In this document: positions 4,541-45,270 of the stretch, one piece after another
Layout: each line of letters starts with the position of its first letter
Numbering within the stretch: the stretch's first letter is position 1
Assembly (NCBI RefSeq): GCF_000143985.1
Contig: NC_014364.1
Span: 2,294,001-2,358,000, forward strand
Length of the DNA: 64,000 bases
From: Sediminispirochaeta smaragdinae DSM 11293
GTDB taxonomy: Bacteria; Spirochaetota; Spirochaetia; DSM-16054; Sediminispirochaetaceae
Direction of reading: 5' to 3'
Program-made: the position numbers and the translations under genes
Notes under the pieces: generated by a model
Databases searched by the model: none
What the model was told of the DNA's origin: nothing
Seen by the model: only the letters and a program-made list of their open reading frames with translations

Positions 4541-5883
4541 TACAACACCTCCCGGGCAATGTCAACATAGCGGTCCATTTCTTGCTTTGTCCGCTTCTCG
4601 GTGACGGCAATGGTCACAAGCCCCTGATACCGTTCATCAAGATTTTCAACCCGGACACCTCCGTAGATTCCTCCCGATCGAAGAGCCTTGATCAGATCGT
4701 CCGTTTTGCTACCAATATTCAAGGTAAATTCGTTGAAAAAGGGCTCGGCAGAGAGGGCTTCGGCTCCAAGCTCTTTTACAAGTCGATCGTGCAGGTAATG
4801 GGCCTTTTGCAGACAGAGATTTCCAGCCTCTTTAAGGCCTTGCTTGCCGATAAGCGACAGGTAGATGGTTGTTCCTAGGGCTGCGAGGGCCTGGTTCGAA
4901 CAAATATTACTTGTCGCCCGTTCCCGTTTTATATGTTGTTCCCGAGCCTGAAGGGTCAGAACAAAGGCCCGCTTTCCCTCCGCGTCCGTCGTCTGTCCGA
5001 CGATTCTACCCGGCAGTTTTCGCATAAGCTTTTCCCGTGTTGCTATATAACCGACGGAAGGGCCTCCGAAATAGGAGGGAAGACCGAAAGGCTGGGTATC
5101 ACCAACGGCTATGTCCGCATTCCATTCTGCTTGGGAACGTGCAATACCGAGGCTCATGGGATTCGAAGAGACGATAAGCTTGCTCTTATTATCGTGTACC
5201 GCATCGGCAAGGCCTGTAAGATCCTCCAGATAGCCGAAAATGTTCGGTGTCTGAACCAGGACCGCTGCCACTTCGGACTTCAGCGCATCCCTGATCGCGG
5301 CAAAATTGCTTCGCCCCTTTTCTGCCGGCACTTCGACGATATTTATGCCAAGATCACCAAAATAGGTTCGAAGGACAGCCTTGGTAGAGGGATGTACCGT
5401 TTCGGATACCAGAATGGTATCGCTGTTTCTGGATGAATTGACCGCCATAGCCGCCGCTTCGACCGCTGCCGTGGCGCCATCGTAAAGTGAGGCATTTGCG
5501 ACATCCATGCCGGTAATCGAACAGATCATCGACTGGAACTCGAAAATTGCCTGCAGGACACCCTGGCTGATTTCGGCTTGATAGGGAGTATAGCTGGTAT
5601 AGAACATGGGAAGGCCCATGATCCGCCCGACAACGGAAGGAATAATATGGTCGTACGAACCACAACCGAGAAAGGATATCGCTGACCGGTTTTTTTCTGC
5701 CAGATGAGAAAGCTCCTGATAGACTTCCCACTCTGTTTTTGTTTTGGGGAGATTAAGCTCTTTCTGGAGTAAAACCGAAGGTGCAATATCAGAAAAGAGA
5801 TCATCGATGCTCGAGACCCCGATGGTTTCGAGCATCGATTTGATCTCATCCTCGGTCTGGGGAAGATAAGGATGTTGGATCAT
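4540..5883 (-). CDS. gcvPA: Glycine dehydrogenase (decarboxylating), subunit 1
   Basis: A 447-aa alpha-type P-protein subunit, partner of GcvPB. The N-terminal [18 protein letters not shown] and the [21 protein letters not shown] and SLYDGATA segments are typical. It has the aminotransferase fold without the catalytic lysine, which lies in GcvPB. GAGGAG precedes the ATG, 7 nt after the gcvH stop. It is the sixth gene of the serine-glycine operon. Nothing looks truncated. Confidence 0.96.
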
Positions 5884-10283: not shown

Positions 10284-11207
10284 TTATTGTATCGGCGATG
10301 AAGAAGCCATGTCAAGAGGAGTAGCCAGCAGACTAAGGGGATCAATTGGGATGCCTGCGACCCTAATTTCCCAGTGAAGGTGGGGACCGGTGGCAAGACC
10401 TGTCATTCCCACGACGCCAATGTGGGTATCGGCATCGACCGTGCTCCCCTCCTCGATATCGATTCTATCCAAGTGGAAAAAGACGCCGTATACGCCCGGG
10501 CCATATTCGATAACCACCGTATTGCCGGTAACGATTCGTGGGCCTGTAAAGACAACAGTACCCTCGCCCCCTGCGGATATCGGCGTTCCCACGGGAGCGG
10601 CAATATCGACCCCAGAATGTATCGACAGGGCACTGGTGCCGTCGGAGTAGCAATACCTCCTTCGATCTCCGTACCAGGCGGAAAAGCGCCCCCCCGTTAC
10701 CGGTAGGTGCAAGCTAAGCTTCTCGTCAAACGGCCTTCTATGGAATGTGTTATAGATCGCATGGATGGCTATTGCCTCTTCTACCTTTTGGGGATCATCA
10801 TCGCTTCGTAGATCGCTCATCTTCTGGTTTAGGGGTATATCCTCTTTAAGAAAGCTTCCCATCTCAACTGAGAGTTCTTGCTGCCAAAGAAGAGTTTTCC
10901 CGGAATAAAGCATCAGGAGAAAACTACCGCTTTGAAGGGTGGAGGGAAGACCCAGCAATGCAATTTCTTCCCTCATTCCTTCCTTTCGCGAATTTTTAGC
11001 TGGGAAGGTATTGGACGAGATAATATCCTTGCCCGCCATGTCACGAAGAGCAACGGTAAGCCCGTTTTCGCTTTGGGTGTGGATACTCAGGCTTACAAGG
11101 GTCCCTGCGACAGCTTTTTTCGGTGCTTCGACCCAAAGCGTCTGCTCTGCAGCCACCATCGTGATCGGTAACAAAAAGAGGTTGAAAATCATCATGTAGC
11201 GTTTCAT
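10284..11207 (-). CDS. Secreted M23 (LytM-type) metallopeptidase
   Basis: A 307-aa exported protein with a signal peptide (residues 1-20, ending VAA). An Ig-like middle region leads to the M23 domain (about 180-290). Zinc ligands are visible in HSGVDIAAP (H-x3-D) and in the HLHWE box near the end. Such enzymes cut peptidoglycan cross-links or act as non-catalytic activators; the ligands here are intact, so activity is likely. The start overlaps the recJ stop by 4 nt. Substrate specificity is not readable. Confidence 0.92.
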   Translation of the reverse strand: MKRYMMIFNLFLLPITMVAAEQTLWVEAPKKAVAGTLVSLSIHTQSENGLTVALRDMAGKDIISSNTFPAKNSRKEGMREEIALLGLPSTLQSGSFLLMLYSGKTLLWQQELSVEMGSFLKEDIPLNQKMSDLRSDDDPQKVEEAIAIHAIYNTFHRRPFDEKLSLHLPVTGGRFSAWYGDRRRYCYSDGTSALSIHSGVDIAAPVGTPISAGGEGTVVFTGPRIVTGNTVVIEYGPGVYGVFFHLDRIDIEEGSTVDADTHIGVVGMTGLATGPHLHWEIRVAGIPIDPLSLLATPLDMASSSPIQ

Positions 11208-35324: not shown

Positions 35325-35398
35325 GGGGGCGTGGCGAAGTTGGTTATCGCGCCGGCCTGTCAAGCCGGAGATCGCGGGTTCAATCCCCGTCGCTCCCG
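35325..35398 (+). tRNA. tRNA-Asp (GTC)
   Basis: A 74-nt cloverleaf: acceptor GGGGGCG with CGCTCCC, anticodon stem CCGGC/GCCGG with loop CTGTCAA (anticodon GTC), T-arm with TTCAATC loop. CCA is not encoded. It sits behind a strong promoter and 77 nt before tRNA-Pro. Confidence 0.96.
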
Positions 35399-35475: not shown

Positions 35476-35548
35476 CGGGCTGTAGCGCAGGGGCTAGCGC
35501 GCTTGGTTCGGGACCAAGAAGTCGGCGGTTCAAATCCGCCCAGCCCGA
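35476..35548 (+). tRNA. tRNA-Pro (CGG)
   Basis: A 73-nt cloverleaf: acceptor CGGGCTG/CAGCCCG, anticodon stem CTTGG/CCAAG with loop TTCGGGA (anticodon CGG), T-loop TTCAAAT, discriminator A. CCA is not encoded. A phage-type integrase gene begins 136 nt downstream, so its 3' half is the likely attachment site. It is complete, so insertion would have kept the tRNA functional. Confidence 0.95.
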
Positions 35549-41636: not shown

Positions 41637-42704
41637 TTAAGTTTTTCCCTTTGATAATGTAAATAGAAAACCGCTCAAGGCACCTCCAATATCATTAAGC
41701 AGCCTAGCATGATCGCCATTTAATTCGTAACTTCCTGGAGCAGCACCATGGGCGGAACCAAAATGTGTTCTTAGGCTGCCAATAGCACTGAAAATGCCCT
41801 TTACATTCCCCAATAGTCTTTTTAGATCATCATTTACTTGCTCATCTGGTGAAAGATTTAATACTTTCATTGTTTCCGCAATTAAACTAGAAATATCTCT
41901 CCTAACAGGTTGTGGCTGCTCTAAATCTGATAGTATCTTTTTACAAACTGCTTCAAGATAACTACATGTTCTTGTGATGGAATCGGCGGGATCAGTTTGA
42001 ATGCAGTTTCGTGCTTTCAACCAACTTCCATACAAATTGTGATCATCAGTCTCTTGAAGTACCTTCGTTGTATGTTTAAATATCAGATTAGATTCACTAT
42101 TAAGCATCTTATCTATAACGGTATAATTATTAGCTGGCAGCTCCATATCATCCAACTGGGATGCGAGATCTTCCAGCAACGAATTTAATGACTCTTCGCT
42201 TGATAATGATTCAAGCCATTCGATAGGCGCGGAAGATAGTTCCTGTATACTATAAGTACGCCAATCAACCGGGATATGTTCGAGTGAATCTTCTATATCC
42301 ATATAAGTAGATCTATAGGCAATGGCAAGTTTTTCAGAATTACAAAATAAGTACCCGTATACCCAATCGTCTGGACCAATCATCCCCAGATGTTTTTCTT
42401 TTGAATGACCAGAGATAGAGACATCCTGCAATGTCTCTTTTATTACAACCCCAAATTCCTGCAGTTTTGGATAGATCTTATCTCTTTTGGATTTTATTGC
42501 TAATACTCTTGATCTAATGTCATCTATCGTAGGCATTTTAATAATCCCCCAAGTAAACTTACCAGCGCATAGATTAAGTTTTTTGAGTAGAAAAGGATCC
42601 ACAGTCTTTTCTGTATATAGACCCAATAAAAAGTTAATAATCTCCTTGTATTTGATAAAAGCATGAACGGGTAGTTTTGGGGCATAAGACCAATCACAAT
42701 TCAT
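41637..42704 (-). CDS. Abortive-infection C-terminal (Abi_C) domain protein
   Basis: A 355-aa protein. The C-terminus (about 240-352) fits the Abi_C domain: SYLEAVCKKIL, then LRTHFGSAHG with R312-x6-H319 and DHARLLNDIGGALSGFL. Abi_C is HEPN-related and typical of phage-defence genes. The N-terminal 230 residues are unassigned. An ATAGAGCAA half-site shared with the repressor operators lies 48 nt upstream (42752-42760). The 165-nt gap after it, up to the DUF262 start, has no gene. Confidence 0.82.
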   Translation of the reverse strand: MNCDWSYAPKLPVHAFIKYKEIINFLLGLYTEKTVDPFLLKKLNLCAGKFTWGIIKMPTIDDIRSRVLAIKSKRDKIYPKLQEFGVVIKETLQDVSISGHSKEKHLGMIGPDDWVYGYLFCNSEKLAIAYRSTYMDIEDSLEHIPVDWRTYSIQELSSAPIEWLESLSSEESLNSLLEDLASQLDDMELPANNYTVIDKMLNSESNLIFKHTTKVLQETDDHNLYGSWLKARNCIQTDPADSITRTCSYLEAVCKKILSDLEQPQPVRRDISSLIAETMKVLNLSPDEQVNDDLKRLLGNVKGIFSAIGSLRTHFGSAHGAAPGSYELNGDHARLLNDIGGALSGFLFTLSKGKT

Positions 42705-43189: not shown

Positions 43190-43263
43190 ATAGAGCAAAT
43201 TGTCACAAAAAACACTTGACAATGTTCCTTTATTGCTCGATTATGAATGTATGAATAGAGCAA
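43190..43263. promoter_or_regulatory. Candidate operator array of the repressor
   Basis: Three half-sites lie in the divergent gap: ATAGAGCAA at 43190-43198, TTGCTCGAT at 43233-43241 (inverse orientation, one mismatch), and ATAGAGCAA at 43255-43263. The latter two form an inverted repeat over the -10 region of the rightward promoter, a position suited to repression. Confidence 0.6.
43216..43244 (+). promoter_or_regulatory. Rightward early promoter
   Basis: TTGACA (43216-43221), 17-nt spacer, GATTAT (43239-43244). It points toward the RHH and excisionase genes and is overlapped by repressor half-sites. Confidence 0.6.
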
Positions 43264-43481: not shown

Positions 43482-43723
43482 CGTACATGAACCAGACCGA
43501 AGCGGCGAAGTACCTTCACGTATCGCCCAGCTATGTGAGCAACCTGACCAGACAAAAAATGATACCTCACAAGCGGATCGGCGGGAAAGTGATCTACACA
43601 AAAGAGCTTCTCGACCGGTGGATACTTGAAGATTCATTACGAAGCGTCGGGATAGACCCGAAGAAAAGCCGCCTGAGCGACACGGTTTTAGGAGAAGAGC
43701 CTTCAACTACGGGGGATGAGTAA
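43478..43723 (+). CDS. Excisionase-type helix-turn-helix protein
   Basis: An 81-aa protein whose first 52 residues are a MerR-like HTH_17 domain: NQTEAAKYLHVSPSYVSNL, then HKRIGGKVIYTKELLDRW. Such proteins act as excisionases or AlpA-like activators. AAGGAG precedes the ATG. It is coupled to the RHH gene. Confidence 0.85.
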   Translation: MTYMNQTEAAKYLHVSPSYVSNLTRQKMIPHKRIGGKVIYTKELLDRWILEDSLRSVGIDPKKSRLSDTVLGEEPSTTGDE

Positions 43724-43799
43724 CGGGCCTACCCGGCCGGAACCTCAGATCGGTGATCTTTGACAGATAAGAGAAGGGATTAAGAGATAAGGATTTAGT

Positions 43800-43893
43800 G
43801 CTGTCCTGTATAGGGAAACCATTTGGAATGCTGAGAAAGCAGCCTCTGACCAGGCCATTACCACTTGTGGGGTTCGAATCCCCGAGGGCAGCA
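43800..43893 (+). ncRNA. tRNA-like element
   Basis: The 3' half is a canonical T-arm (GGGG TTCGAAT CCCC). GCTGTCCT (43800-43807) pairs with AGGGCAGC (43885-43892), an 8-bp acceptor-like stem with one wobble and a following A; a T43799-A43893 pair would make it 9 bp. The D and anticodon parts are not canonical: a GCTG/CAGC hairpin has a 6-nt loop and there is extra sequence like a long variable arm. It may be a degenerate class II tRNA, a tRNA mimic or a processing signal. CCA is not encoded. Confidence 0.45.
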
Positions 43894-43960
43894 AATCATA
43901 ATCTGCTACCGGTCAGTAGACCGGCAATCTACTCCGTGAAAAGCGGGAAAGGAGGAAAGC

Positions 43961-44164
43961 GTGACAGACAAAACGAAGCGCATTATAGCCTATGCGCTGA
44001 CTGCGATAGCCGCCGCAGTTTTGGCGTTTGCCGAGCTGTTTGGCTGGGACCTGCCGGACTGGGGAACAATCATGAACGTAATAGTCATCATTGCATCTCA
44101 GGTCTTCGGCATTGAGTGGATTCCACCCAAGCGGGCAAGCAATGGAACCGGCGGAAACGGTTAA
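43961..44164 (+). CDS. Holin-like small membrane protein
   Basis: A 67-aa protein with two membrane segments (about 8-27 and 35-50) and a charged, Gly-rich tail, the form of a small phage holin. It starts at GTG with AGGAGG 5 nt upstream. Its place in the early region, not next to a lysin gene, is unusual for a holin, so another membrane role is possible. Confidence 0.65.
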   Translation: MTDKTKRIIAYALTAIAAAVLAFAELFGWDLPDWGTIMNVIVIIASQVFGIEWIPPKRASNGTGGNG

Positions 44165-44204
44165 AAATTTCAGATGAGATAACGGCTAAAAACAGGCAAA
44201 CGAG

Positions 44205-44701
44205 ACGCAATCGTTAACTGCGTTGGCGCCCGGGAAAATTAGATAGGGCTGACCGGGGGCAACCAGTGAGACCGCAAGTAGACGGGCATAATTGAGGCGA
44301 AAGCCGAGTGAATGATCAGGATGGCAACCTGATTGAAAAGCGTGTTATGTCGATAGCCTAAGCTCCGGGTCGCGCCGGACACTGGTTATTGTTGATCTTA
44401 CGGTATAGATGTGTTGGCCACCAAGTACCAGCAATGGTGATTTATATCGCACTATCAACTACCGAGCGCCGGGGAATCGTGGCGCTTTAAGTGACCGGAT
44501 GACCAACCATATACCTTTTCGATATGGCGGTAAACAGCACCTCCCCAAGGCGTAACGGTCGTCCGGTTTCTTAACTCCCTCGTATGGGGGAGAAAAACAA
44601 TCCGTGATGCCGGAGAAATAATAGCATCTATATTTTCGCGGCTGTATGCCGGGATTCAAACAGGTTGGATCGGTAAACACCAATTTTCCTACCGGTCCAA
44701 C
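44205..44701 (+). ncRNA. Candidate large structured RNA
   Basis: No convincing gene lies in 44165-44733. Read as plus-strand RNA, nested helices fill it: 44205-44209/44219-44223; 44261-44268/44380-44387 (8 bp perfect) enclosing 44285-44291/44345-44351, a GGC-GAAA-GCC hairpin (44296-44305), 44315-44320/44328-44333 and 44364-44368/44375-44379; 44391-44396/44454-44459; 44465-44470/44481-44486; 44494-44504/44557-44567 (11 bp, one wobble) enclosing 44507-44512/44522-44527; 44575-44579/44588-44592; 44664-44675/44690-44701 (12 bp, one wobble). They do not cross. Strand and ends are inferred. Large phage RNAs near tRNAs (GOLLD, ROOL) are the nearest known idea, without a family match made here. Confidence 0.6.
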
Positions 44702-44733
44702 AACTTTCAACCTTTTTCAAGGAGGACATGGTA

Positions 44734-45270
44734 ATGGAATTGGAAGAAAAAGAAAGCTTGCAAGGTTTCATAGGAGTGAAAAGGATCAAAGCACGACCGA
44801 TGACCAGGCGTGGATACAACGGCTATCGTGGCTGGCAACTTCCTGCGGATGAAAATGGAGATGATGAAGGGATGCTTGTCGAGTATGTCGATGGCGGTAA
44901 ATCCAATCATCCCGCACATGAGGGCTATATCAGCTGGTCACCTATCGATGTTTTCAATCGTGCATATCGGCCATGTGATGCCCTTACGTTTGGCTTTGCA
45001 ATCGAAGCGGCAAAGGCCGGAGAGAAGATTGCCCGAAAAGGCTGGAATGGAAAGGGCATGTTTGTCTTCTACCAGAAGGGCTACCCGGAAGGAATACCGA
45101 TCAACAAAAATACCGCAGAGGCAACAAGATTGCCGGAAGGAACCGTCTGCAAATTCCGGCCGTATCTCATGATGAAGACAGCACAAAACGACTTCGTGCC
45201 ATGGGTTGCATCGCAGACCGACATCTTAGCGGAGGACTGGGAGATTATCGAGCAGGGAGAACAGAAATGA
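44734..45270 (+). CDS. tad2: Tad2 (DUF2829) anti-Thoeris protein with an extra N-terminal domain
   Basis: A 178-aa two-domain protein. Residues 84-172 are DUF2829/Tad2: LTFGFAIEAAKAGEKIARKGWNG, then FRPYLMMKTAQ and VPWVASQTDILAEDW. Tad2 sponges the cyclic ADP-ribose signal made by Thoeris and so blocks that defence. Residues 11-80 (YNGYRGWQLPADENGDDEG, GYISWSP) form a second domain common in phage proteins of unknown role. AGGAGG 8 nt before ATG sets the start at 44734, right after the structured RNA. It leads the recombination operon. Confidence 0.88.
   Translation: MELEEKESLQGFIGVKRIKARPMTRRGYNGYRGWQLPADENGDDEGMLVEYVDGGKSNHPAHEGYISWSPIDVFNRAYRPCDALTFGFAIEAAKAGEKIARKGWNGKGMFVFYQKGYPEGIPINKNTAEATRLPEGTVCKFRPYLMMKTAQNDFVPWVASQTDILAEDWEIIEQGEQK

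Follow-up and report, generated by a model that had tools for sequence, protein, structure and literature searches.

The window, the whole 64,000-nucleotide stretch of DNA that was analysed, covers positions 2294001-2358000 of the 4,653,970-base chromosome of Sediminispirochaeta smaragdinae DSM 11293 and represents a prophage of this organism, to which an IMG/VR contig (L013; IMG genome number 648028052) is identical. The copy in the window is referred to as W, and other loci compared with it carry L-numbers. Within the rightward early region of the prophage, a block at 44165-44733 is flanked by the gene for a putative membrane protein of 67 aa and by a Tad2-like gene, the latter being preceded by a good ribosome-binding site and followed by a gene for a Sak4-like ssDNA-annealing protein. 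Left of the block, on the opposite strand, are the genes for a CI-like repressor and, adjoining it at 41637-42704 (-), a protein of 355 aa that carries an Abi_C (abortive infection C-terminal) domain. The window also contains two ordinary cloverleaf genes, tRNA-Asp (gtc) at 35325-35398 and tRNA-Pro (cgg) at 35476-35548. The features of the region are as follows.

43216..43244, + strand: sigma-70-like promoter match, TTGACA-17-GATTAT, 10 of 12 consensus matches, where the rightward early operon begins
43800..43893, + strand: tRNA-like element with an 8-bp acceptor-like helix (43800-43807/43885-43892), a T-arm (43868-43884) and no recognisable anticodon arm
43961..44164, + strand: gene for the 67-aa product, a small and putative membrane protein ('holin-like') without a family match
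44226..44260, + strand: hairpin P0, in which 44226-44233 pairs with 44253-44260 with one mismatch, immediately 5' of P1
44261..44387, + strand: domain A, closed by helix P1 (44261-44268/44380-44387)
44271..44362, + strand: exchangeable segment A, 99% identical to L010 and 51% to L018
44363..44379, + strand: hairpin P3 (44364-44368/44375-44379, UCCGG/CCGGA), invariant in 8 sequences
44388..44459, + strand: exchangeable segment B with closing helix 44391-44396/44454-44459, 100% identical to L018 and 42% to L010
44460..44485, + strand: hairpin C, stem 44466-44470/44481-44485, with a conserved UACCGRGC, a loop starting GGGGAAUC and covarying pairs
44486..44727, + strand: 3' structured part, with helix 44489-44504/44557-44572, hairpin 44575-44581/44586-44592 and helix 44664-44675/44690-44701
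44728..45270, + strand: gene 3' of the block for a Tad2-like protein (Thoeris anti-defence 2-like domain; PF11195, E 2e-27)

Since a consensus scan returned no more promoter matches in the region than expected by chance, it is the position of the match at 43216..43244 that speaks for it, and the block is probably co-transcribed from there as part of the early operon. An earlier note on this DNA had described the block as free of genes, and this description holds: no ORF within it exceeds 83 aa, a PHROG search with those tested and a phage tblastn search with the longest both gave no match, and none of the frames stays open consistently across 8 relatives. On these grounds a protein-coding block was rejected. 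The three helices named in that note are exact, the one at 44664-44675/44690-44701 (12 bp) including a G-U pair beyond the earlier description. P1 (AACCAGUG/CACUGGUU) is Watson-Crick paired at 8 of 8 positions and encloses hairpin P2 (CCG/CGG, 44272-44274/44283-44285), with which segment A starts, followed by a variable interior and P3, while the 11-bp helix 44494-44504/44557-44567, with one G-U, extends to 16 positions with one mismatch (44489-44504/44557-44572). A GAAA tetraloop, likewise mentioned before, is present in W as GGCGAAAGCC, with GGAA at the same place in the paralogue L010.

The whole block has a minimum folding energy of -188.5 on the + strand, compared with -168.0 +/- 7.7 for 100 dinucleotide shuffles (z -2.64; one shuffle in 100 equally good), and the antisense strand reaches z -0.53. 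The + strand thus folds better than 99 of 100 shuffles of the same composition; folded separately, the 5' half is unremarkable (z -1.6) and the 3' half is strong (z -5.4). Since control stretches vary widely, some of them reaching z -2 to -5, and the 5' half falls within their range, folding energy is weak evidence on its own and would not settle the matter, so that the argument for a structured RNA is carried by relatives with covarying pairs.

The frame consisting of these helices is common, in whole or in part, to three further prophages of S. smaragdinae, about nine IMG/VR contigs and one MAG. In the same genome L010 is a near-identical second copy, and L011 and L012 are diverged ones; the MAG member, L046, is labelled Candidatus Aegiribacteria. 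A pattern scan of IMG/VR yielded L014, L018, L019, L021, L030, L060, L062 (with the near-duplicate L068), L065 and L067, of which L021 and L030 are incomplete, the sequence ending within them, and L060, L062 and L067 have hairpin C and no recognisable domain A. The frame of domain A, closed by P1, is common to 9 sequences, among which pair 2 shows a single double change, and P0 stands immediately 5' of P1 in most members, the hairpin itself differing between them. Inserts between the fixed helices vary greatly in length, and the frame common to members measures about 220-270 nt, which in W corresponds to approximately 44226-44485. When the window was shuffled 100 times, the hairpin C pattern never matched by chance; it was found in 11 loci. 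Among 393 genomes of Spirochaetota, this pattern returned only the four own copies and two matches within apparently coding DNA, and the P3/P1 pattern gave a single true match (L046) in the GTDB representative collection, from which the records of the window's own genome were possibly excluded. Judged by these searches, the RNA family is rare. Named phages and plasmids contained no relative of the block or of the L014 and L046 forms apart from tRNA-Leu-like stretches. Further pattern matches were dropped as chance after inspection of their surroundings (L032-L044, L045, L047-L050, most of L051-L066, L069, L071, L075 and L076).

The genomic contexts of the members differ, comprising the early region in W, a terminase-portal region in L014 and, in L046 and L060, a site following an SbcC-like gene, and a tad2 neighbour is known only for W and L010. 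Several of these loci hold other unusual features. In L012 (about 1950-2370) the gene for the small membrane protein, directly upstream of the RNA, has a DNA methylase-like frame leading into its 3' end, a junction that looks like a recombination join. The terminase-like gene of L014 (3022-5109; 695 codons) has an apparent intein-like insert with an antisense HNH-like frame, and the viral contig of L021 carries a Type-P5 twister ribozyme at 10780-10860 in addition to the family member.

Comparison of the relatives revealed compensatory changes in four of the helices. Pair 2 of P1 changes from A-U to G-C, pairs 1 and 3 of P2 from G-C and C-G to U-A, and pair 4 of hairpin C from A-U to G-C. The helix closing segment B is present in members where it can be placed and is a different helix in L010, all of its pairs being re-paired in L010 and in L065. 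P1 and P3 are nearly invariant and thus otherwise uninformative, and P2 is short in W and L010 (three pairs in W, two non-pairs). Among the relatives, helix cells contain 7 G-U compared with 2 A-C combinations, which fits an RNA read from the + strand. These are plain counts from hand-aligned helices in few independent sequences. Homologues, changes on both sides of pairs and the asymmetry between strands nevertheless all support the large structured RNA that had been suggested from the window alone. The proposal that the 570 nt form one RNA fared less well, the evidence pointing instead to a modular array that comprises the tRNA-like element upstream, the conserved frame (about 44226-44485) and a separately structured 3' part (44486-44727). 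The evidence for the 3' half (44486-44733) consists of folding energy and one near-identical paralogue, L010, in which the 3' part is 97% identical and beside which no other relative was found.

The pairwise identities of the segments show that the frame holds exchangeable parts. Between W and L010 the interior of A is 99% identical, hairpin C 96% and the 250 nt 3' of C 97%, in contrast to 42% for B, while between W and L018 the P0 side (96%), B (100%) and C (96%) agree and the interior of A does not (51%). Likewise, L011 and L012 share A, B and C at 99-100%, whereas the interior of their downstream tRNA-like element is only 47% identical between flanks of 88% and 96%; this interior is 99% identical in L011 and L018, which differ in A and B (48-50%). 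L014 matches L011 in A (98%) despite its different phage region, and its B and tRNA-like interior are unrelated to those of L011. Segments regarded as unrelated gave about 42-55% identity in the same alignment; segments A and B and the tRNA-like interior were each either 98-100% identical or unrelated in a given pair of loci, in independent combinations. Each segment is thus either the same or unrelated, with borders at structural helices, and we consider it very probable, on these sequence comparisons, that the block belongs to a genuine family of structured RNAs whose cassettes are exchangeable.

tRNA-like elements adjoin the RNA in W, L010, L011, L012, L014, L018 and L030 and are mostly without a normal anticodon arm. 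In L011, L012 and L014 the element begins 3 nt 3' of hairpin C, with the hairpin delimited as in the segment comparison, and scores 38, 42 and 35 bits, respectively, with the Rfam tRNA model; L018 has two tandem elements after hairpin C, the second scoring 40 bits, and at the same place L060 has a normal-looking tRNA and L065 a tRNA-like stretch. W contains no such element 3' of hairpin C, the structured part 44486-44727 standing there instead. Its own tRNA-like element, which the earlier note had placed about 270 nt upstream of the block, is real (43800-43893), is separated from the RNA by a protein gene and has a single U-G pair that is U-A in L010. It gave no ARAGORN or Rfam tRNA match and, lacking a cloverleaf with an anticodon arm, does not qualify as a tRNA. 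An attP site at a tRNA gene was also considered and rejected, as there was no identity to a host tRNA and an own-genome search over the element found only the paralogous prophage.

We propose that the + strand of the block encodes a structured phage RNA belonging to a new family, arranged in a small array with the tRNA-like element and probably transcribed within the early operon. The fixed helices P1, P2 and P3 and hairpin C would form a scaffold and segments A and B its cassettes. In relatives hairpin C is followed, at a distance of a few nt, by a tRNA or by an element resembling one, so that RNase P cutting at the tRNA-like 5' end would free an RNA that terminates shortly after hairpin C; from the arrangement of these sequences we regard such tRNA-type processing as evenly balanced. 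The released RNA would act in trans, and its cassettes would be diversified under an arms race by recombination at the short conserved arms. Its most plausible role might be that of an RNA counter-defence or decoy acting on tRNA and the translation machinery, and it may be directed against tRNA-targeting defences. Counter-defence seemed the most natural function, since an anti-Thoeris gene adjoins a frame that stays fixed while its parts are exchanged and since phage tRNAs offer a precedent: phage tRNAs defeat tRNA-directed defences (PMC11555353), and the tRNA variable loop is cleaved by Septu in a study that also sets phage tRNAs against defence (PMC13096335). Those RNAs resemble the present ones as phage-borne, tRNA-type molecules in an arms race, although they are working tRNAs, whereas most of the elements described here have no normal anticodon arm and are tied to an RNA that is not a tRNA. 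Counter-defence is a tentative suggestion that, taken singly, we hold to be unlikely to prove correct, and the proposal as a whole, a trans-acting phage RNA of a new family with tRNA-type release, arms-race cassettes and a counter-defence or decoy role, stands somewhat short of an even chance. Since the frame is kept and the inner segments are swapped, the varying part is probably what meets the host, and this offers a direct handle on function.

The strongest alternative is a cis-acting leader or intergenic RNA that gives rise to no product of its own and whose helices control the early genes downstream of it, through transcription antitermination, mRNA processing or translation. Its position in the early operon soon after the repressor and the good ribosome-binding site of the next gene would agree with this, as would an array in E. 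coli (L197, see below) that occupies an equivalent early place and adjoins a repressor-type gene. However, the relatives in other operons (the terminase-portal region in L014, and after the SbcC-like gene in L046 and L060) do not fit a service to early genes, and neither the tRNA-like neighbours nor the exchange of cassettes has an obvious role in cis, so that we see a cis-acting RNA as a serious but minority possibility.

A second alternative is an architectural RNA resembling ROOL, which is characterised by an RNA nanocage, or GOLLD, which is characterised by a 14-mer RNA cage; it would assemble into a multimer or cage, the cassettes corresponding to variable inner or linker parts. GOLLD is a large structured RNA of phages and prophages that occurs near tRNAs and combines a conserved part with a variable part able to hold tRNAs, and ROOL is a large phage RNA found near tRNA islands, the functions of both being unknown (PMC12286853). 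The present RNA is similarly phage-borne, hundreds of nt long, near tRNA-type elements and composed of a conserved frame and variable parts. Yet the identity with GOLLD or ROOL that the earlier note had considered was not borne out: cmscan against Rfam at gathering scores matched neither in the window or in ten loci including relatives, nor did a scan of 43700-44900 up to E=5, and in the window HEARO and group I and group II introns were likewise without a match. The common frame, only about 220-270 nt, is roughly half the length of ROOL (659 nt in a solved example) and far shorter than GOLLD (often >800 nt), and in contrast to GOLLD at least two separate segments are exchanged wholesale. An architectural RNA of this kind therefore appears distinctly unlikely. 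The note's other suggestion, a new class, fits the result that no Rfam family was matched. The block RNA belongs with the large phage RNAs near tRNAs and may work like GOLLD or ROOL while standing outside both by covariance model; if cassette exchange proves to be its working principle, it would be categorically new.

According to a third alternative, the locus is a DNA-level recombination region whose arms are kept for phage recombinases exchanging cargo, RNA structure being a by-product. The exchange borders do fall on conserved short segments and a Sak4-like protein is encoded downstream, but P2 and hairpin C covary beyond what identical arms would need, and the cargo does not consist of genes. 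Compensatory and G-U-tolerant changes indicate selection on RNA pairing on one strand, which makes this explanation improbable. That the block has no function and folds as expected of GC-rich intergenic DNA, as the ordinary energy of the 5' half might suggest, is hardly credible given a frame kept in unrelated phages, compensatory changes and a hairpin C pattern that shuffled sequence did not match.

Among smaller RNAs, the immunity RNAs of P4 and P1/P7 (CI RNA and C4 RNA) are small, structured and RNase P-processed, and derive from the early-operon transcript of temperate phages. The block RNA shares with them its structure and its early-operon setting in a temperate phage, and differs in being much larger and modular and in having neither an Rfam sequence match nor an antisense target here; as an antisense guide it was rejected, an own-genome search giving only short matches besides the paralogues. 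Several of 19 P3/P1 pattern matches were of the HEARO/IscB omega RNA type, one subgroup of which has CUCCGGG..CCGGACACUGG like P3-P1 here. The consensus differs and pairs differently there and the surroundings of the block showed no nuclease gene, so we regard this resemblance as due to chance.

The relatives also point to a wider pattern. The P0 hairpin of L014, UGACAGCCGGAAAGACGGCA (5313-5332), here called hairpin D, has a core UGACAG-N-GAAAGA-N-CA with a GAAAGA loop; it takes the place of P0 in L046 as well (about 5278-5299) and lies upstream of the RNA in L065. W's own genome contains no hairpin D of the L014 type, and hairpin D is thus linked to W only through these relatives. It occurs in at least 120 IMG/VR stretches (L077-L196), compared with about 7 expected by our own estimate from the size of the collection, and stem variants with compensating changes occur. 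In 78 non-redundant occurrences, including L014 and L046, a T-arm with acceptor follows hairpin D in 13% of cases (0.4% at random positions) and an 8-bp closing helix in 15% (2% at random positions). In the sequences surveyed, hairpin D is thus widespread in phages, and it precedes tRNAs, tRNA-like elements or closed structured domains far more often than random positions do. A second, proteobacterial-type set of loci (L091, L098, L124, L141, L157 and L160) repeats the pattern of W: identity between the fixed flanks reaches 93-97%, and the closed insert after hairpin D is unrelated. L094 and L113 contain serial copies of hairpin D together with long closed RNA domains, among them a tRNA-like element whose acceptor-like stem is very long. 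In a literature search, mainly outside subscription papers and bioRxiv, neither the hairpin D core nor arrays of this kind were found described.

It is possible, if rather doubtful, that phages infecting many different hosts possess RNA loci of a combinatorial kind, in which fixed frames and tRNA-like shells, often after a hairpin D, enclose cassette interiors and provide diversified, RNA-only counter-defence or host takeover, the block representing one family. If the pattern is general, as the second set of loci suggests, phages may exchange RNA parts in the way they exchange tail fibres or anti-defence genes. An array of about 800 nt with D-type hairpins and a tRNA-like element, containing no annotated genes, is present in a prophage of E. 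coli SK1144 (L197, 3990-4800; NZ_AP018784.2), where it adjoins a repressor-type gene of a YdaT-bearing prophage. Arrays of this type were found in 446 of 5426 complete E. coli genomes, unannotated in nearly all among the matches listed, so that a host convenient for experiments is available for testing the wider question. Annotated CRISPR arrays of E. coli SMS-3-5, HS4 and 2020CK-00188 match the L197 array over 44 and 33 nt at 95-100% identity, and the array therefore looks spacer-targeted.
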